Source of the DNA: Deltaproteobacteria bacterium
Lineage (GTDB): Bacteria > Desulfobacterota > GWC2-55-46 > UBA9637
Direction: 5' to 3'
DNA length: 49,164 nucleotides
Assembly (NCBI GenBank): GCA_016214995.1
Contig: JACRML010000016.1
Span: 1-49,164 of the forward strand
In this document: one piece after another, positions 46 to 28,998 of the stretch
How positions within the stretch are numbered: the stretch's first letter is position 1
How the letters are laid out: every line of letters begins with the position of its first letter
Position numbers and translations under genes: made by a program
Notes under the pieces: generated by a model
The model's input: only the letters and a program-made list of their open reading frames with translations
Told to the model about the DNA's origin: nothing
Database searches by the model: none

Positions 46-113
46 AGCTTCCTTCTTTTAATCAGGAAGCTACACTTGCCAGTTTCCCCGAAAATCAATG
101 TCTATTTTTGGGT
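46..113 (+). repeat. Partial copy of two-hairpin dispersed element (3' part)
   Basis: Two stem-loops are visible: AGCTTCCT (46-53) with AGGAAGCT (64-71), and CCCGAAAAT with ATTTTTGGG around the spacer CAATGTCT (87-113). The second hairpin and its lead-in CTTGCCAGTTT recur almost identically at about 28963-28998. This is therefore a copy, or the 3' end of one, of the same element. The rest of 1-265 holds no gene that I can support. Confidence 0.6.
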
Positions 114-265
114 TATGCCATCTGTAAAAAAATAGTAAAAAAGAACCTGAAAATTCTTAATGACTTTCTCACCTTGTTTTGATAATCTTTTTAAATACTA
201 CGGATGTGGGAATCAAGCGGCAGTAAAGGATTTTTCCACACCCCATCATTTTGGAGGATATCTCT

Positions 266-1336
266 GTGCAGGCAACAAAAACGCGCAATTGGAATGGAGT
301 AATCAGGGAGTTTCAGGAATTTTTGCCAAAGGTAAAAGATGACTCAGTAGTTACCTTGAGGGAAGGCAATACCCCTCTGATAGAGGTTTTGACTATGGGG
401 GAGTTGTTTGAAAGAGGTTTAAAGATATTCCTCAAATATGAGGGGCTGAACCCAACAGGCTCCTTTAAGGACAGGGGCATGACAATGGCGGTATCAAAGG
501 CAAAGGAAGAAGGCTCTCATGCCGTAATATGCGCCTCAACCGGAAATACTTCTGCCGCCGCCGCTGCGTATGCGGCAAGAGGAGGGTTAAGGGCATATGT
601 TCTGATACCAGAAGGAAAGATTGCGCTTGGCAAGTTGTCACAGGCAATGATGCATGGGGCAAAAGTTGTGCAGATACAAGGGAATTTTGACGAAGCCCTG
701 ATAATTGTGAAAGAGGTTTCCATGATGTATCCTGTAACATTGGTTAATTCAATAAATCCGTACAGGCTTGAAGGCCAGAAGACTGCGGCATTTGAGGTGT
801 GCAATCATCTGGGTTTTGCGCCCACATACCATTTTCTGCCTGTTGGGAATGCCGGCAATATAACCGCATACTGGAGAGGTTATAAGGAATTTAAGGAGCG
901 AGGGGTAACAGATAGTCTGCCAAAGATGATGGGATTTGAGGCAGAGGGCTCCGCTCCTATTGTAAGGGGTCATCCTATAAAAAATCCTGAGACAATAGCA
1001 TCTGCCATAAGAATCGGCAATCCTTCAAGCTGGGAAAATGCAGTAAAGGCAAAGGATGAATCGGGCGGGATAATAGACATGGTGTCTGATGATGAAATTA
1101 TTTATGCGTATAAGCTTCTTGCAAGGGAAGGGGTATTCTGTGAACCTGCGTCTGCCGCATCTCTGGCAGGTGTTATAAAGATGCACAAAAAAGGTATATT
1201 TAAAAACGGCGATACAATTGTCTGCACATTGACAGGGCATGGCCTGAAAGACCCTGATACAGCAATAAAGTCATCTGACAAGCCTATAACAGCGGAGCCT
1301 GAGCTGGGTAAGGTGGTTGAGTTGCTGGGGTTTTAG
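266..1336 (+). CDS. thrC: Threonine synthase
   Basis: PLP enzyme that converts O-phosphohomoserine to L-threonine in the cytoplasm. With the GTG start the protein has 356 residues, normal for the short bacterial/archaeal class. It opens with the typical [11 protein letters not shown] and REGNTPL motifs. [10 protein letters not shown] holds the Schiff-base lysine (about residue 68), and [17 protein letters not shown] forms the phosphate-binding region. The frame is open from a TTG at 251, but that TTG overlaps GGAGG (253-257). The GTG at 266 sits 8 nt after GGAGG and is the better start. No other threonine-pathway gene lies beside it. A hairpin follows the stop directly. Confidence 0.93.
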
Positions 1337-1341
1337 AGACC

Positions 1342-1374
1342 GTAAAATAGCGATTGAAGACCTTGCTATTTTAC
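1342..1374 (+). repeat. GTAAAATAGC hairpin (5' half of two-hairpin element)
   Basis: A perfect 10-bp inverted repeat, GTAAAATAGC (1342-1351) with GCTATTTTAC (1365-1374), lies just after the thrC stop. The same hairpin with nearly the same loop (GATTGAAGACC) recurs at 28816-28848 and inverted at 48168-48202. No T-tract follows, so a simple intrinsic terminator is unlikely, although the hairpin could stabilise the mRNA end. Confidence 0.7.
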
Positions 1375-1404
1375 AAACTGGCAAGTTGTATTGCGCCAAC
1401 AATT

Positions 1405-2289
1405 ATGTATAGAAACAATAAAAACAAAAAGTATATTCTCCTATTAAATCTTATTTTAGTTTTAACACCCCCCGCTATTTATTCTTACGGGAGTTATGAG
1501 GTTGCCGATATATTTCCATTCTTTAAGGATATACCCAGTCAAGGGGATATGGTTTTCATACCAGCTGGAGAATTTATTATGGGAAGCAGTGAAGAAGAGG
1601 TGGAAAAGGTGGCAAGGGAATTTGGTAAAAAAGGGGATTTTGTTGATTACGATTTTAGAAAAGAGACTCCGAAGAGAAAGGTTTATGTAAAGGCATTTTA
1701 TATTGATAGATATGAAGTTACCAATGCGCAATATAAAAGATTTATAGATGCTACAGGCCACAGACCTCCATATCACTGGGAAAACGGAACCTATCCGCAG
1801 GATAAAGGAAGCTATCCTGTTATCAATGTGAGCATGAATGATGCAAAGGCATATACATTCTGGGCAGGCAAGAGGCTTCCAACAGAAGAGGAATGGGAAA
1901 AGGCTTCCAGGGGCATGGACGGCAGGATATATCCGTGGGGCAATGAATTTAATCCGCATAATGTGAGAACCGCAGAGGCATTCCTGAATACCCGCCTCTG
2001 TTTGCGGGACCTTACACAATTTGCAGCGCCGGTTGATGAGTTTAAAAATGATAAGAGTCCATATGGTGTTTATGACACAGCAGGCAATGTGATGGAATGG
2101 ACAGACAGCTGGTATGAAAAGGGTGAGACAAAGGTCGTAAAGGGCGCTGCATGGGTGCATCTTGGACCGCGGGCAAGAAGCGCCGGCAAGGACGGGGCCA
2201 AACCTGATGAAATAAGCCATATTGTAGGATTCAGGTGTGCGATGGATGCAGTTGACGGCATAAAAACATCAAATTTAACAATAAGATAA
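1405..2289 (+). CDS. Secreted formylglycine-generating-enzyme/SUMF1-family protein
   Basis: The ATG at 1405 gives 294 residues beginning with a basic stretch and hydrophobic core (YILLLNLILVLTPPAIYS), read as a signal peptide. Upstream codons lie in the repeat hairpin, so an earlier start is rejected. The rest is a full FGE-sulfatase fold: FIPAGEFIMGS, FYIDRYEVTNAQY, PVINVSMNDAKAYTFWAGKRLPTEEEWEKA (seen in pieces), IYPWGNE, YDTAGNVMEWTDSWY and a terminal GFRCA. The copper-binding cysteine pair of true formylglycine-generating enzymes is not evident. It is more likely one of the many FGE-fold proteins of unknown periplasmic role. It ends 9 nt before apgM and is probably co-transcribed. Confidence 0.85.
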   Translation: MYRNNKNKKYILLLNLILVLTPPAIYSYGSYEVADIFPFFKDIPSQGDMVFIPAGEFIMGSSEEEVEKVAREFGKKGDFVDYDFRKETPKRKVYVKAFYIDRYEVTNAQYKRFIDATGHRPPYHWENGTYPQDKGSYPVINVSMNDAKAYTFWAGKRLPTEEEWEKASRGMDGRIYPWGNEFNPHNVRTAEAFLNTRLCLRDLTQFAAPVDEFKNDKSPYGVYDTAGNVMEWTDSWYEKGETKVVKGAAWVHLGPRARSAGKDGAKPDEISHIVGFRCAMDAVDGIKTSNLTIR

Positions 2290-2298
2290 CTAATTTAT

Positions 2299-3491
2299 AT
2301 GAAGTATATTATCTTAATAGGCGACGGGATGTCTGATGATCCCATTAAAGAGTTGGATAATAAAACACCACTCCAGGTTGCGAGGACGCCTAATATGGAT
2401 ATGCTTGCGCAGAAGGGCTCTATCGGTCTTGTGAAAAATGTGCCTGACGGCTATCCGCCCGGCAGCGATGTGGCCATTCTCAGTGTGTTGGGCTATGACC
2501 CTGCAAAATATTATACTGGCAGGTCTCCTCTGGAGGCTGCAAGTATTGGCGTTAAACTGGCACCCGATGACCTTGCGGTTCGGTGCAATTTGGTTGCCTT
2601 GAGCCAGAAGGACGGCAGGGTTTATATGGATGATTTCAGCGCAGACCATATAACTACTGATGAAGCAAAAGAGGTTATAAAGGATATTGATAAGGAGCTT
2701 GGCAAACAAGGGATAAGATTTTATCCCGGCGTCAGCTACAGACATTTGATGGTATGGAGCGGTGGGCCGGACAGTCTTGAAACAACGCCTCCTCACGACA
2801 TAACAGGCAAAGAGATAAAAGACTATCTGCCCAAGGGGAGCGGCTCGGACAAATTTATCCGGCTTATGAATGCCTCGCAGATGCTTCTCAAAGGGCATCC
2901 GGTAAATATCAAAAGACAAGAAAACGGGCATAAGCCTGCAAACTCCATCTGGCTCTGGGGACAGGGGAGGGCGCCCAAGCTGCCGACACTGAAGCAAAGA
3001 TTTGGCATTGAAGGTTCCATTATATCGGCAGTTGACCTGCTCAAAGGCCTTGGCATATATGCAGGGTTGAAGGTGGTGAATGTTCCAGGGGCAACAGGCT
3101 ATCTTGACACCAACTATCGTGGCAAGGCCGAATATGCGTTAAAGGAACTGGAGACGCGGGATTTTGTGTGCGTACATGTAGAGGCGCCTGATGAGGCAGG
3201 CCATACAGGGAATTTAAAAGATAAAATAAGAGCTATTGAGGAGTTTGACAAAGAAGTAGTTGGCAGAGTGGTGGATGGATTATCTCAATTCAAGAATTAT
3301 AGGATGCTTGTGCTTCCTGACCATCCTACGCCTATTGCCAAAAAGACCCACACCAGAGACCCTGTGCCGTTTGTGATGTATGATAAGGGCAAAGGGCAAA
3401 GGGCAGGGCATATAATGAGGTAGATGCAAAGGCAAGCGGCCTGTTTATAGAGCAAGGACACAAGCTTATAGAGATGCTTCTGAAGAAGTAA
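2299..3491 (+). CDS. apgM: Cofactor-independent phosphoglycerate mutase, archaeal type (frameshifted near C-terminus)
   Basis: Interconverts 3- and 2-phosphoglycerate in glycolysis/gluconeogenesis. It belongs to the alkaline-phosphatase superfamily: GDGMSD at the N-terminus binds metal, [16 protein letters not shown] is the expected serine region, and [14 protein letters not shown] and THTRDPVPF bind metal and substrate. The frame from 2299 stops at 3423 with an atypical tail ([11 protein letters not shown]). The expected family C-terminus, [20 protein letters not shown], continues in another frame to a TAA at 3489-3491. The shift lies in three AAGGGCA units at 3385-3405; one unit more or two fewer restores one frame. 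Whether the lesion is real or an assembly error cannot be told here. Confidence 0.85.
3385..3410 (+). repeat. 7-bp tandem repeat (AAGGGCA x3) at apgM frameshift
   Basis: Three perfect AAGGGCA units (3385-3391, 3392-3398, 3399-3405) are followed by a partial GGGCA. With a single unit the apgM frame would read [16 protein letters not shown] and run to 3491, which matches the family tail. Slippage of a 7-bp unit changes the frame because 7 is not a multiple of 3. Confidence 0.85.
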
Positions 3492-3516
3492 GGACATCCC
3501 TACGGTAGAATAGAGT

Positions 3517-3858
3517 ATGCCCACACAATCTTCTATCAATATAAAAAAATCCGACATAGAGATAGAATTCTATCGCAGTTCTGGTCCCGGCGGTCAGCAT
3601 AAGAACAAAACTGCGACTGCTGTGCGCATTAGGCATATCCCGACAGGGATTGTTGTGCAGGCTTCGGAAAGACGTTCCCAGCACATGAACAGGGAAGTTG
3701 CGATGGAGAGGCTTGAGAAAGCTATTTCAAGGTTGTATTTTAAACCTAAAAAGCGCATTCCTACAAAACTTTCTCGGTCTCAGAAGACGAGGCGGCTTGA
3801 AGATAAGAAAAAAATAGCAGGAAAGAAGGTATTGAGAAAAGTTAAAGAGGAGGATTGA
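3517..3858 (+). CDS. Peptide-chain-release-factor-like (GGQ) protein, ArfB/PrfH type
   Basis: 113 residues consisting of one class-I release factor catalytic domain. The GGQ loop is [18 protein letters not shown], followed by a conserved [17 protein letters not shown] stretch and a very basic tail ([16 protein letters not shown]). It lacks the codon-recognition domains of RF1/RF2, so it should hydrolyse peptidyl-tRNA on stalled ribosomes. The family is described as peptide chain release factor-like; ArfB (YaeJ) is the best-studied relative. It starts 25 nt after the repaired apgM stop and ends 1 nt before the next frame, so it is probably translated in the same operon. Confidence 0.85.
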
Positions 3859-3859
3859 A

Positions 3860-4477
3860 ATGAAAGTGTCAAAGTGCCGGAGTGTCGTAGTGTCAGAAGT
3901 CAATAAAAGGACTGAAACGGAGAAGGGGAGAAGCGGAGAAATTAGTTTTTCATTTTTATTACTGTTTACTGTTTCCTGCTTCCTGTTTGCTGTATCATTA
4001 ACCGCCTGTGGCAAGAAAGAGGAGCCTGTAAAAGAAGAAACTAAAATTTCAGTAGTTGAAAAAAAGGCCGAGGTAGCGCCGTCTGCCGAGACTATTTCTG
4101 CTGAGGCGTATAAAGGCGCACTTGTTGTCTCAGATGTGACTGGTGTTAATTAGCAGAAGGGTGTAATAAGTGCGACCGGCCGCGGCCTGCCGCCGAAACA
4201 CATTACAAATCCGGCTCAGGCAAAAATACTTGTCATGCGCGCAGCAATTGTAGAGGCCCAAAAAAGCCTCCTTGAAATAATACTAAAGATGAAAACACCG
4301 CCCGACAAAGGCATGAAGGAATACCTTGATGAAAAACACATAGAAATAAGCCGCATAGAGGGTTTTGTCAAAGGGGCAGTAGTGGTTAAAGAGGAATATA
4401 AGGATGACGGTAGTGCAGAGGCGACCCTTGAGGTCCAGCTTGTAGGGGCAGATGGGTTGGTTGCAGTGTTGAGATAG
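3860..4477 (+). pseudogene. LPP20-family lipoprotein interrupted by in-frame TAG
   Basis: Two open stretches in the same frame (3860-4153 and 4235-4477) join without a gap if the single TAG at 4151-4153 is read through. The joined product has about 205 residues: a lipoprotein signal with lipobox LTAC, a charged linker, then an LPP20-like domain (ISATGRGLPP, NPAQAKILVMRAAIVEAQKSL, a second half ending GADGLVAVLR). The first 30 or so residues derive from a low-complexity repeat (AGTGTCAAAGTG type) that also occurs near 36380, so the true start may be later. No tRNA that would decode TAG is seen, so a nonsense mutation or sequence error is likeliest. The domain call rests on motif resemblance. 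Confidence 0.65.
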
Positions 4478-4522
4478 GTGAGGAGTTTTTTTGAGTTTAG
4501 AATTTATGGATAGAGGTGCTAT

Positions 4523-4993
4523 ATGATGGCAATTATCAGATTCATCCACCTCCTTTCTCTGGTTGTCTGGCTTGGCGGCATGATATTTTTTTCCTTCATT
4601 GCTGCGCCGAGCATCTTTAAAATCTTGCCCAGAGAGGCCGCAGGAGATGTGGTAGGAGATATATTTCCTAAGTATTGGATAATAGGATATATTTGCAGTG
4701 TCACAGCCGTTGCAACCATAGCGATATTATCGTTTCAGGAAAAAGCTTATCCATGGGCAAGAATCGGGTTGTTAGCTTTGATGACCGTGCTTGTGTTTTA
4801 CTCAGGCAAGGTAATCGGCAAAAATGCCGTGGAGGTCAAGGCTCAGATTCGCATGACCGAAGACCAGACGCAAAAAGAGGCATTGAGGCTCAAATTTAAG
4901 GCCATTCACAGGAACTCAACCATACTCAATGCCCTTATTATGATACTGGGGCTGACGGTTGTATTTCTGACAGCATACTATTATAAAATTTAG
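4523..4993 (+). CDS. DUF4149/TMEM205-like integral membrane protein
   Basis: 156 residues with four predicted transmembrane helices, at about 5-28, 48-70, 78-98 and 135-153. The N-terminal motif is FIHLLSLVVWLGGMIFFSFI and the second helix follows PKYWIIGY. This pattern is typical of the DUF4149 family (TMEM205-like), a small membrane protein of unknown function. A charged loop (MTEDQTQKEALRLKFKAIHR) precedes the last helix. Start choice is between two adjacent ATG codons (4523, 4526). It ends 23 nt before the diguanylate cyclase gene. Confidence 0.75.
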   Translation: MMAIIRFIHLLSLVVWLGGMIFFSFIAAPSIFKILPREAAGDVVGDIFPKYWIIGYICSVTAVATIAILSFQEKAYPWARIGLLALMTVLVFYSGKVIGKNAVEVKAQIRMTEDQTQKEALRLKFKAIHRNSTILNALIMILGLTVVFLTAYYYKI

Positions 4994-5016
4994 CTCCTCG
5001 CACAGGAGGTTCTGCA

Positions 5017-6844
5017 ATGAAATTGAAATTAGGAATAGGCAAAAAACTTATCGGGGCCCACGGAATAGGGCTTGTCTTCTTTCTTTTCCTAGCAATTTTC
5101 AGCTATGTCAGTTTAAACTCCTATTCATCCATTCAGAAAAAGACTGACGAACTTGCCAATAAAACTGAGCTTATATCAGATTTGCAACTCCTTATAAGTA
5201 AAATCTTGATGCCTCCAAATGATTATCTTATAACAGGGGATAAAAACGAGAGAGAAGGATTTGCGGGTTTGGTTACACAGACGGCGTCTCTATTTGAGAA
5301 AATAAGGATTAGCAGAGATAAAACTAAAGAAGATATTGCAATTTTGGAGGATATTGAAAAAGGGTTTATAGAACTTCAGAAAAAGGCTATGGTTCTTCTA
5401 TCAACTGAAAACCCTGTTGGCAATAAAGAGGCGGCACGACTTATGGAGGAGATGGATGCCTTTGCAGATGACTTGATAGTTAAAGTTGAAAAACTGCGCA
5501 ACCTGATAAGAATAGAAACAGAAGGCCATAAGAAAAGTGTTTCTGAAATAAGCAAGCAGATGGTCTTAATCTTTCTCTCTTTAACCTTCATATCTCTGTC
5601 TGGAATGGTTGTAATTGCTTTAATCATTATGAAAGGTGTTATCAGGCCAATCGCGGAGCTTACAAATGGAGTAAAGGCCATAGGCAGTGGAAATCTTGAA
5701 CACAGGATAAAGATTGAGACCGGCGATGAAATTGAGGGATTGGGAAATGAGTTTAATAGCATGGCGCAATCTTTGAAAGAGAAAGTCGCCGAGGTAAAAG
5801 AGTATTCTGAAAAACTTGAAAGGACAAACCGTCAGCTTGACCAGAATATATTACAGCTTTATACGCTCTATAATATAAGTAAAACTATTTCTGCAACCTT
5901 CGAGATGGAAAAACTTCTAAACCAGGTTGTAGAAAGGGTAAGCGAGGCCATGAAGCTGCATAGAATCAATGTGATGCTTGTTAACGAGGATAGGACAGAG
6001 ATGTACATTGTTGCAGGTATGGGAATGCCTGAAAGGGCAATGGAGATAAGGTTTAATCTGGGGGGGGGGTATTTACGGCTGGACAGCTTTAACAGGGCAG
6101 GCAGCGGTTTTTAATGACCTCTCACAAAATCCGCGTTTTAAACCTACACATGGGCTTGATGATGATGTTAGCTCCTTAATTTCTGCGCCATTTAAAGGCA
6201 GGAATCAGGTGATAGGAATAATAAACGCCTACAGATTGGGAGGAGAGGTTTTTGATGAGGCATCATTTGAGCTTTTAACTGCTGCGACTGGTCAGATTGG
6301 ATTGGCATTAGAGAATGCAAGGCTATTTGAGGAGACAAAGACCCTTGCCATTACAGATGGTATGACAGTCCTTTACAATCATCGTTACTTTTTAGAATGT
6401 CTGAGTAGGGAATTTGAAAGGGCAAACCGATATAAAAGGCCCCTCTCTCTTATCATGATTGATGTAGATTTTTTTAAGAAATACAACGACACCCACGGCC
6501 ATCCGAAAGGTGATGACGTTCTGAGAGGAGTTGCAGGTATCCTGAAAAAATCGGTTAGAACTTCAGATATTGTTGCCAGATACGGTGGGGAAGAATTTGT
6601 TATTATCCTGCCTGAAACAACAGGAGAAGCGGCGTTTACGCTAGCGGAGAGATTAAGAAAAGAGGTAGAATCAACCGACTTTCCCGGCGGCGAAACTCAA
6701 CCTTTGGGTAGAATTACCATAAGCCTTGGAGTAGCTGCCTCTATGGAGGGTGTAACAAAATATCCCGATGACCTCGTAAAAAACGCTGATAATGCCTTGT
6801 ATCGCAGCAAGGAAGAAGGTAGAAACAGGGTCTTCGTTGTTTAA
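5017..6844 (+). CDS. Membrane HAMP-GAF-GGDEF diguanylate cyclase, frame broken at a G10 tract
   Basis: Would make cyclic di-GMP at the inner membrane. RBS AGGAGG precedes the ATG. The first frame (5017-6114) encodes TM1 (about 14-34), a periplasmic four-helix sensor, TM2 (about 180-205), HAMP (IRPIAELTNGVKAIGSGNLEHRI) and the first half of a GAF domain. It then runs into ten G (6060-6069) and stops. Removing one G continues the GAF domain (GIYGWTALTGQAAVF) into the frame ending at 6844, with a complete GGDEF domain: DVDFFKKYNDTHGH, active site GGEEF and an RxxD product-inhibition site (RTSD) five residues upstream. The intact protein would have about 608 residues. It may be a phase-variable gene or a homopolymer error. 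Confidence 0.85.
6060..6069 (+). repeat. Poly-G tract (G10) in diguanylate cyclase GAF domain
   Basis: Ten consecutive G lie at the exact point where the GAF domain changes frame. Nine G would give one uninterrupted HAMP-GAF-GGDEF protein. Long G tracts inside genes are classic slipped-strand switch sites and also common sequencing-error sites. Confidence 0.9.
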
Positions 6845-6851
6845 GATTTTT

Positions 6852-7895
6852 ATGCCTTTCTTAAATCCATCCGCCCCTTACACTATTTCCGTCGTAATTA
6901 TCTTTGCATATACACTGGACTTAATATCAGGCGATCCAAGATGGCTTCCGCATCCTGTGAGGTGGATTGGGAGGTATATAGTATTTCTGGAAAACATGAT
7001 AAGAAAGTTTGCCGGAAATCCTTTGGCTGAAAAGATTGGAGGGGTGTTTCTTTTTGTCATTGTTGTTGGAACGGTCTATAGTTTAGCTTGGCTTCTTTTG
7101 TTTCTAGCCACTCGCTACTCACCACTTGTCACTCTTATTTTAGCCGTCTTCATTGCCTATACCACCCTTTCCATAAAATCTCTGCATCAAGAGGCATACG
7201 GAGTTATATGGGAGATTGAAAAAATTTCTCCCCCACCCAACCCTCCCCCGCAAGGGGGGAGGGCAAGGGAGGGGGGGCATCTTGATGAGGCGAGAAATAG
7301 GCTAAAGAATATTGTTGGCCGTGATACGCAAAATCTATCAGAAGATGAAATCTATCGCGCTGTTGTTGAAACCGTTGCAGAAAATACATCTGACGGCATT
7401 ATTGCGCCTCTATTTTATCTTGCCATAGGCGGACCAGCGCTTGCTCTTGCATACAAGGCAGTCAATACGCTTGACTCAATGGTTGGCTATAAAAATGGAG
7501 CGTATAAAAACCTCGGATGGTTTTCTGCCAGAATGGATGACATTGCCAATTTTATCCCTGCCAGGATTACAGCTTTGTTTATGGCTATTGCTTCTTTTAT
7601 ACTGAGATTGAACTTGAGAAACTCTTTACGAATAGTTTGGAGAGATGCAAGGAATCACCCAAGCCCTAACGCAGGCTATCCAGAGGCAGCAGTGGCAGGT
7701 GCGTTGGGCATCCAATTAGGCGGCACAAATTATTATTTTGGAGCGCCGCATAACAGGCCTCTCATAGGCGATAAAAACAAGGAATTTACGATTGAATCGG
7801 CAAAAGATACGGTAAAGATTATGCGCCTTACGGCGTTTCTTGGTGTTGTTTTGTTTTCAGGTCTTTTGTTGATTGTTAGCTCGTATATTTGGTGA
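6852..7895 (+). CDS. cbiB: Adenosylcobinamide-phosphate synthase CbiB/CobD
   Basis: Membrane enzyme that attaches aminopropanol (or its phosphate) to adenosylcobyric acid in cobalamin synthesis. From the ATG at 6852 it has 347 residues. The frame is open further upstream, but that part overlaps the GGDEF gene. Diagnostic motifs are DLISGDPRWLPHPVRWIGR near the N-terminus, NIVGRDTQNLSEDEIYRAVVET (seen in pieces), ENTSDGIIAPLFYLAIGG and AYKAVNTLDSMVGYKN, with several membrane helices. Residues about 126-142 (SPPPNPPPQGGRAREGG) are not part of the family and are encoded by an inserted G/C-rich palindrome. The next cobalamin gene in the window is cobD at 25.8 kb. Confidence 0.92.
   Translation: MPFLNPSAPYTISVVIIFAYTLDLISGDPRWLPHPVRWIGRYIVFLENMIRKFAGNPLAEKIGGVFLFVIVVGTVYSLAWLLLFLATRYSPLVTLILAVFIAYTTLSIKSLHQEAYGVIWEIEKISPPPNPPPQGGRAREGGHLDEARNRLKNIVGRDTQNLSEDEIYRAVVETVAENTSDGIIAPLFYLAIGGPALALAYKAVNTLDSMVGYKNGAYKNLGWFSARMDDIANFIPARITALFMAIASFILRLNLRNSLRIVWRDARNHPSPNAGYPEAAVAGALGIQLGGTNYYFGAPHNRPLIGDKNKEFTIESAKDTVKIMRLTAFLGVVLFSGLLLIVSSYIW
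7228..7277 (+). repeat. In-frame palindromic repeat inside cbiB
   Basis: CCCTCCCCC (7241-7249) pairs with GGGGGGAGGG (7254-7263), with further C/G runs either side. The segment keeps the cbiB frame and adds a proline/glycine-rich patch between two conserved blocks. Similar CCCTCNCCC hairpins occur intergenically at 43824-44017. Confidence 0.7.
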
Positions 7896-17652: not shown

Positions 17653-18600
17653 GGGTCAGGTCTACTTTCTTGACATCACAGACGGATTGCGCTATATATT
17701 TTCCATGTCCCGCCCATTACGCATAGAATATCCCGGCGCAGTTTACCACATCACCTCGCGCGGCAATGAAAAGAAAGCTATATTCAAGGACGATTCAGAT
17801 AGGGAGAAATTCCTCAAAATCCTTGCTCAAGTCAATAAACGCTACAACTGGCTCTGCCATGCCTACTGCCTCATGGACAACCATTATCACATTCTCGTAG
17901 AAACCCCGGACGGCAACCTCTCCATAGGCATGAGGCATCTAAACGGCGTCTATACCCAGATATTCAACAGGCAACACAAGAGAACCGGCCACCTGTTTCA
18001 GGGAAGGTTCAAAGCCATCCTTATCCAGAAAGACAGCCACCTCCTTGAAGTTTGCAGATATGTCGTCCTAAACCCTGTCCGGGCAAGGATAGTAGAACAG
18101 CCAGGAGACTGGAAATGGAGCAGCTATCCGGCCACATCAGGAAGAGAAAACCCCCATCCTTGTCTTACCCGGGATTGGATACTCGGTCAATTCAGCAGAA
18201 CAAGAGGGAAGGCAGAGAAAGGATACCGGCAATTTGTGAATTTGGGGACTCAGAAAGAAACAATCTGGACAGAAGTGAAGGGTCAGGCTATACTTGGACA
18301 AGACGAATTTGTGAATGGACTCGTAGAGGACTCGTAGAGCATATCAGAAAGCGCAAAGACATACCCGACATTCCGAAAAGCCAGCGGTATGTGAACCGCC
18401 CATCGCTTGAAAAGATTTTCTACAATGAAATTTTGCAGGATAAGGTTAAGAGAGACAAGAAGATAGCCGAGGCTGTTGAAGAATATGGATACAGGCAGCG
18501 CGAGGTTGCTGATTATCTGGGCATGTATTTTACTTCGGTGAGCAGGATTATGAAGCGGGAATCTCAAATGTCTCAAATGGCAAGAAAGTAGACCTGACCC
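17653..18600 (+). mobile_element. REP-associated tyrosine transposase unit with 20-bp inverted repeats
   Basis: GGGTCAGGTCTACTTTCTTG (17653-17672) and CAAGAAAGTAGACCTGACCC (18581-18600) are perfect inverted repeats that flank one IS200-like transposase gene. The last codons and TAG of the transposase lie inside the right repeat. Other fragments of the same repeat were not seen elsewhere in the window. Confidence 0.8.
17705..18591 (+). pseudogene. rayT: REP-associated tyrosine transposase (Y1/IS200-like), frameshifted
   Basis: Single-strand HUH transposase of the RAYT group. The N-terminus SRPLRIEYPGAVYHITSRGN, the HUH motif DNHYHILVET and a catalytic-tyrosine region CRYVVLNPVRARIV are intact. 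The C-terminal helical DNA-binding part (EEYGYRQREVADYLGMYFTSVSRIMKR) is in another frame. The break is an exact 11-bp tandem duplication, GGACTCGTAGA at 18317-18327 and 18328-18338. Removing one copy gives FVNGLVEHIRKRKD and an uninterrupted 291-residue protein. As it stands translation stops at 18337, so this copy is probably inactive. Confidence 0.88.
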
Positions 18601-28766: not shown

Positions 28767-28815
28767 GTTTGGCTGTCTTGACTCTTAATCCTTCAAGCTG
28801 CAACCTCCTCTGACC

Positions 28816-28998
28816 GTAAAATGGCGATTGAAGACCCCGCTATTTTACAAACCGGCGATTTGGCTGCCATACTTAGTTATCGGCGCATTTTTTCTCCTCA
28901 TCGTATTGATGAACATACGGCTCGTCGCAAAAATGGCCTCTGCCTCGTCTGGCAGCCAACTTGCCAGTTTACCCAAAAATCAATGTCTATTTTTGGGT
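28816..28998 (+). repeat. Two-hairpin dispersed element, full-length copy
   Basis: The 5' hairpin is GTAAAATGGC (28816-28825) with GCTATTTTAC (28839-28848). The 3' hairpin is ACCCAAAAAT (28971-28980) with ATTTTTGGGT (28989-28998), a perfect 10-bp stem. Between them lies CGATTTGGCTGCCATACTT, also found inverted near 48110-48130. Copies or parts are at 46-113, 1342-1374 and 48079-48202. The open frame at 28828-29094 is generated by this repeat and is not a gene. Confidence 0.75.

Follow-up and report, generated by a model that had tools for sequence, protein, structure and literature searches.

The window, by which is meant the whole stretch of DNA analysed, comprises 49,164 nucleotides of contig JACRML010000016.1 from a Deltaproteobacteria bacterium. 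It belongs to a draft genome (G000) of 1.98 Mb, assembled in 99 contigs and 82.5% complete. Between a DUF4149 gene and a CobD/CbiB gene, the window carries a predicted diguanylate cyclase gene, the reading frame of which is lost at a run of ten G. The features of this region are the following:

4523..4993, + strand: DUF4149 gene, bordering the apparent insertion on the left
5017..6114, + strand: upstream cyclase piece, with the N-terminal sensor region, HAMP and the putative beginning of GAF, followed by 14 codons out of frame and a stop
6060..6069, + strand: G10 run, at the GAF glycine motif, the point of frame loss
6062..6844, + strand: downstream cyclase piece in another frame, with the remaining GAF and a complete GGDEF domain (GGEEF, RxxD)
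6209..6844, + strand: open reading frame of 211 aa from a GTG, the first common start codon of the downstream frame
6852..7895, + strand: CobD/CbiB gene, bordering the apparent insertion on the right; it directly follows the DUF4149 gene in G005, a genome of the same family

The upstream open reading frame (5017-6114, 365 aa) reads CTG GGG GGG GGG across the run, which is the sole G/C run longer than 7 within the window, and reaches its stop 14 codons later. The downstream frame begins with IYGWTALTGQ and continues through the end of GAF and the entire GGDEF domain to a stop of its own. Pfam profiles recognize HAMP on the upstream piece (5.6e-13), and GAF_2 (5.7e-12, profile positions 55-136 of 136) and GGDEF (2.6e-48, positions 1-161 of 161, i.e. 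complete) on the downstream one. The first half of GAF has no Pfam match on the upstream piece, and its presence there is suggested by the alignment to homologs, in which the two pieces are neighbouring parts of a single protein. In translation, the GGDEF domain reads RYGGEEF, with RxxD five residues ahead of GGEEF; we take GGEEF to be the active-site motif and RxxD to be the I-site. The domain is thus complete with both motifs, while the single continuous frame from the start codon to GGDEF is lost at 6060-6069. With one G fewer the frame would be continuous, as can be read directly from the sequence. The structural part of the original prediction therefore holds: an ORF that breaks at ten G in the GAF domain and resumes in another frame, a HAMP-GAF-GGDEF layout, a complete enzyme with nine G, and an intact GGEEF site and I-site. 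The split gene is best described as a predicted HAMP-GAF-GGDEF diguanylate cyclase, to which the synthesis of c-di-GMP can be ascribed by prediction.

The site of the run can be compared in eight homologs (L050, L051 and L021-L026); a ninth, L052, lacks the site. A run of more than five G is found in none of the eight, the longest being G5 in L025, and the tract is thus not one that has been kept among homologs. L050 and L051 have the codons GGA-GAG-GGT at this position. The middle residue is Glu in L050, L051, L024 and L025, Asp in L021, Ala in L022 and Gln in L023 and L026. Without the extra G, the window gene would have Gly here, as against Glu in four of the eight homologs and Gly in none. 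Relative to L051, two A-to-G changes beside the CTG codon would yield G9, and one more slip would make it G10. The closest intact homolog found is L050, from a MAG labelled Schekmanbacteria GWA2_38_11, which is 68-69% identical over both pieces, is unbroken and has no long G run. In L051 the GGDEF similarity fades near the end of its contig, whereas L052 shifts frame twice and is missing much of GAF; neither defect is at a G/C run. A second homolog in the genome of L051, with 56% identity, occupies an open frame of 610.

Both pieces of the window gene appear to be under purifying selection. Aligned separately, they give dN/dS values of 0.10 (with L050) and 0.16 (with L051) upstream and of 0.14 and 0.16 downstream, beside 0.19 upstream and 0.17 downstream for the reference pair L050-L051, with dS of 1.0-2.0, near saturation, and with L051 covering only 154 downstream codons. 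When L021 is used as the outgroup, lineage-only changes in 345 upstream columns number 10 in the window, 13 in L050 and 20 in L051, and in 153 downstream columns 4, 11 and 6, respectively. The downstream piece therefore seems undecayed, although so coarse a test could not place a recent break in time. Decay beyond the shift, which had been named as an observation that would speak against a switch, was looked for in these numbers, and none was seen; the further decay past the break that is typical of an ordinary pseudogene is likewise absent, and the split cyclase could be a pseudogene only if a very recent one. The constraint on both pieces, together with the lack of a downstream excess of window-only changes, implies that the break is recent, reversible or an error of the consensus.

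The run itself is not an unusual object in this genome. Overlapping G8 matches number 3 in the window against a mean of 1.18 (sd 1.27) in dinucleotide shuffles, and 15 of 100 shuffles have at least 3. Genome-wide, there are two G/C runs of at least 10 where about 2.5 are expected, and four of at least 9 where about 9.8 are expected, according to a first-order Markov estimate derived from the window and applied to 1.98 Mb. The four runs are those on contigs C34 (9), C82 (9) and C90 (15) and in the window (10). Only the C15 run on C90 exceeds chance, with 0.003 expected. G9 is present at least once in 39 of the 41 genomes searched (the window genome and 40 relatives), and a pattern scan of viral contigs for the tract found none. 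The genome has no special repertoire of long G/C tracts, and the excess expected of contingency loci is not seen. G10 is thus unsurprising on the scale of the genome; its interest lies in its position within a gene, where a change of length by one base restores or breaks the frame. By its length and base it is likely to be a slippage hotspot.

The distribution of the gene suggests that it was added to this locus. In G005 the DUF4149 gene runs straight into cbiB, and a search of the equivalent stretches in G005, G001 and G003 finds no cyclase. By the single gene tested, threonine synthase (99% identical), G003 is the nearest genome. It matches window positions 113-4995, up to the end of the DUF4149 gene, in three pieces of 83-98% DNA identity; past 4995, nothing in the 19.5 kb stretch of G003 that was compared aligns except short, repeat-like segments of 57-68 bases. 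The homologs that come closest, among those found, belong to MAGs labelled Schekmanbacteria (68%), Nitrospinota (66%) and Nitrospinae (53% in the best segment). Among the 40 relatives the best match is in G021, of the same class (49%), and within the genus it is in G004 (37% over residues 3-337), besides short matches to the HAMP region of up to 43%. A sample of 395 genomes of the phylum, searched at the DNA level, gave matches in 86, all of them partial outside the window genome, the best being 68% over 500 bases in G021. The cyclase gene looks like a single-gene insertion and thus like an accessory gene. Acquisition, rather than repeated loss, would be the simplest reading, and the transfer may have come from afar.

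Two other features of the window may be recorded here. An FGE-sulfatase (SUMF1-like) gene at 1354-2289, between the genes for threonine synthase and a phosphoglycerate-mutase-like protein, is unmatched in the equivalent regions of G003, G005 and G001 and is another apparent single-gene insertion. The segments 7230-7277 and 28813-28997 are short repeats with copies on many contigs of G003, G004, G005 and others.

The cyclase gene is not the only broken gene of this genome. The adjoining lipoprotein-like gene (window 3860-4477) has TAG at 4151-4153, where G003, G005 and G001 have TGG. An IS200-like transposase (Y1_Tnp; ORF 17687-18337, gene 17687-18591) is disrupted at 18317-18338 by a tandem duplication of 11 bp, past which, by our reading, its frame would continue. 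GGDEF is matched ten times in the genome, and one of these matches, on C20, covers only part of the profile (73-161). It belongs to a second GAF-GGDEF gene (G000:C20:28517-28822), which is broken by a frame change at a point without a homopolymer and which, compared with other GGDEF domains, also has an apparent internal deletion. Gene loss, including the loss of a cyclase, is ongoing in this genome, and this weakens both the idea of a switch and that of a pure artefact.

Long G/C runs were also surveyed in the family, where 14 distinct runs of at least 10 occur in seven of eight genomes. A crude test for a split gene, which asks for at least 50 open codons on each side of the run in different frames and is often satisfied by chance, flagged seven of the 14, including those on G004:C78, G003:C19 and G005:C103. 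The translations around the runs on G007:C32, G003:C22 and G004:C162, two of which had been flagged, and the ORFs around that on G000:C90 were given a closer look. Among the inspected runs, the window G10 and the run on G007:C32 are real splits. The run on G004:C162 looks rather like the junction of two genes, which we take to be TraB- and TraV-like, and that on G003:C22 like a start region. In G004, of the same genus, a C24 run (G004:C78:28181-28204) lies ahead of, or at the beginning of, a 494-codon open frame that reaches the edge of the stretch.

The C15 run of the window genome (G000:C90:22183-22197) is flanked by a rubrerythrin-like piece, whose match falls below the Pfam cut-off (E 0.00099), and by a response-regulator piece (PF00072, 1e-14). 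In G007, which belongs to another genus of the same family, a C10 run is found at the homologous site (G007:C32:13724-13733), and the gene is split there. Of 63 genomes of the class, 40 have a match to the rubrerythrin-response-regulator gene. Thirty loci were fetched for comparison, weaker matches being left out, and 30 alignments from 29 of them span the site, that of G007 not being among them. The poly-C run is absent from the 29 alignments (28 loci) other than G000's own. Between G000 and G007 the two pieces have dN/dS of 0.13 and 0.18, and both are constrained. In the G000 copy, a stop immediately precedes C15 and about 45 residues are missing after the run; with these lesions it is probably not switchable. 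The poly-C site shared by two genera is a lead on tract switching.

The synteny, the homologs and the breaks in other genes of the genome favour a recent accident or an error of the consensus. The explanation we prefer, to which we give about an even chance, is that a slip-prone G run arose by chance and is seen here in a state one base off frame, which would inactivate an accessory cyclase. The process may be described as follows. A lone gene for a membrane HAMP-GAF-GGDEF cyclase was probably acquired and came to lie between the DUF4149 gene and cbiB. The codons of its GAF glycine motif, seen as GGA-GAG-GGT in L050 and L051, would then have become all G, creating a slip-prone run by chance. 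A slip that added one G would have shifted the frame, the order of these mutations being a reconstruction. The product would be a truncated sensor half and an out-of-frame GGDEF half, so that the cyclase is off or, at most, a detached GGDEF domain is made. Reversion by the same slip would be possible, and nothing shows that it has been selected as a switch. On this reading, the extra G would be present in the cell and not in the assembly alone, the cyclase activity would be lost, and there would be no selection for switching. A tract likely to slip, in an otherwise pristine gene, would also be expected of a reversible switch and counts against an accident.

The strongest competitor, which we regard as unlikely but by no means negligible, is an error of the consensus or the assembly, such that the true frame is open, with nine G or an interrupted run like those of the homologs, and the gene is intact. 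Long G runs are a classic spot for miscounting, and the break coincides with one in a draft assembly; the undecayed remainder of the gene is what an intact gene would show. Against this, the nonsense codon nearby and the 11-bp duplication are breaks of a non-homopolymer type in the same genome.

The regulatory part of the original prediction, namely that slipped-strand mispairing in the run toggles the frame so that cells differ in c-di-GMP synthesis, is not supported, and a phase-variable cyclase must be considered improbable. The position of G10 within the gene, a single base off an open frame, with an intact catalytic site and a constrained downstream frame, is what such a switch would require, and poly-C occurs at one site in two genera in another signalling gene of the family. 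However, the long run is missing from all eight homologs, tracts are not enriched genome-wide, G005, G001 and G003 have no cyclase at the locus, and other genes, the second GAF-GGDEF gene among them, have ordinary breaks away from any homopolymer. A broader possibility, that slippage in poly-G/C switches signalling genes throughout the family, with the cyclase (G10) and the rubrerythrin-response-regulator gene (C15, and C10 in the other genus) as instances, is very improbable; if true, it would mean that c-di-GMP synthesis is itself switched directly by replication slippage. Least probable of all is leaky expression, in which slippage of RNA polymerase or the ribosome on the long G run gives some full-length enzyme, or a GGDEF piece is made from GTG 6209, a start that is preceded, by eye, by AGG a few bases upstream and from which the 211-aa frame could be translated on its own; both pieces are constrained, but the run is not conserved among homologs.

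The locus is thus a cautionary case, in which a long G run with clean frames on either side mimics a switch. Compared with L050, it has the same HAMP-GAF-GGDEF layout and GGDEF motifs; unlike L050, it is broken and has a long G run. Related cases in open-licence papers are phase-variable genes with G/C tracts in Campylobacter (PMC8355987) and with simple repeats in Neisseria meningitidis (PMC5084427), a poly(A) tract in Listeria inlA with homopolymer frameshifting as a general mechanism (PMC2831843), and indels in homopolymeric tracts of P. aeruginosa (PMC8115180); among the titles and abstract beginnings of open-licence papers that were screened, no slippage-switched cyclase was recognised. 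The window gene resembles the loci of Campylobacter, N. meningitidis and Listeria in having an intragenic homopolymer one base off frame, a G/C run of slip-prone length. It differs from them in that its tract is not conserved, is not accompanied by a genome-wide enrichment and is known from a single consensus.

In the open-licence literature covered, switching of c-di-GMP signalling itself is represented by pdcB and pdcC of Clostridioides difficile, c-di-GMP phosphodiesterases that are phase-variable by invertible DNA (PMC9286219), and by the inversion and epigenetic examples of switched c-di-GMP phosphodiesterases in a review (PMC11868660). Like pdcB and pdcC, a switched cyclase would make the turnover of c-di-GMP stochastic; unlike them, it would combine a synthesizing enzyme with a homopolymer, where they combine degrading enzymes with invertible DNA. 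If the tract were to vary in length, the window gene would be a cyclase controlled by slippage, as against the inversion and epigenetics that act on degrading enzymes in the c-di-GMP cases so described.
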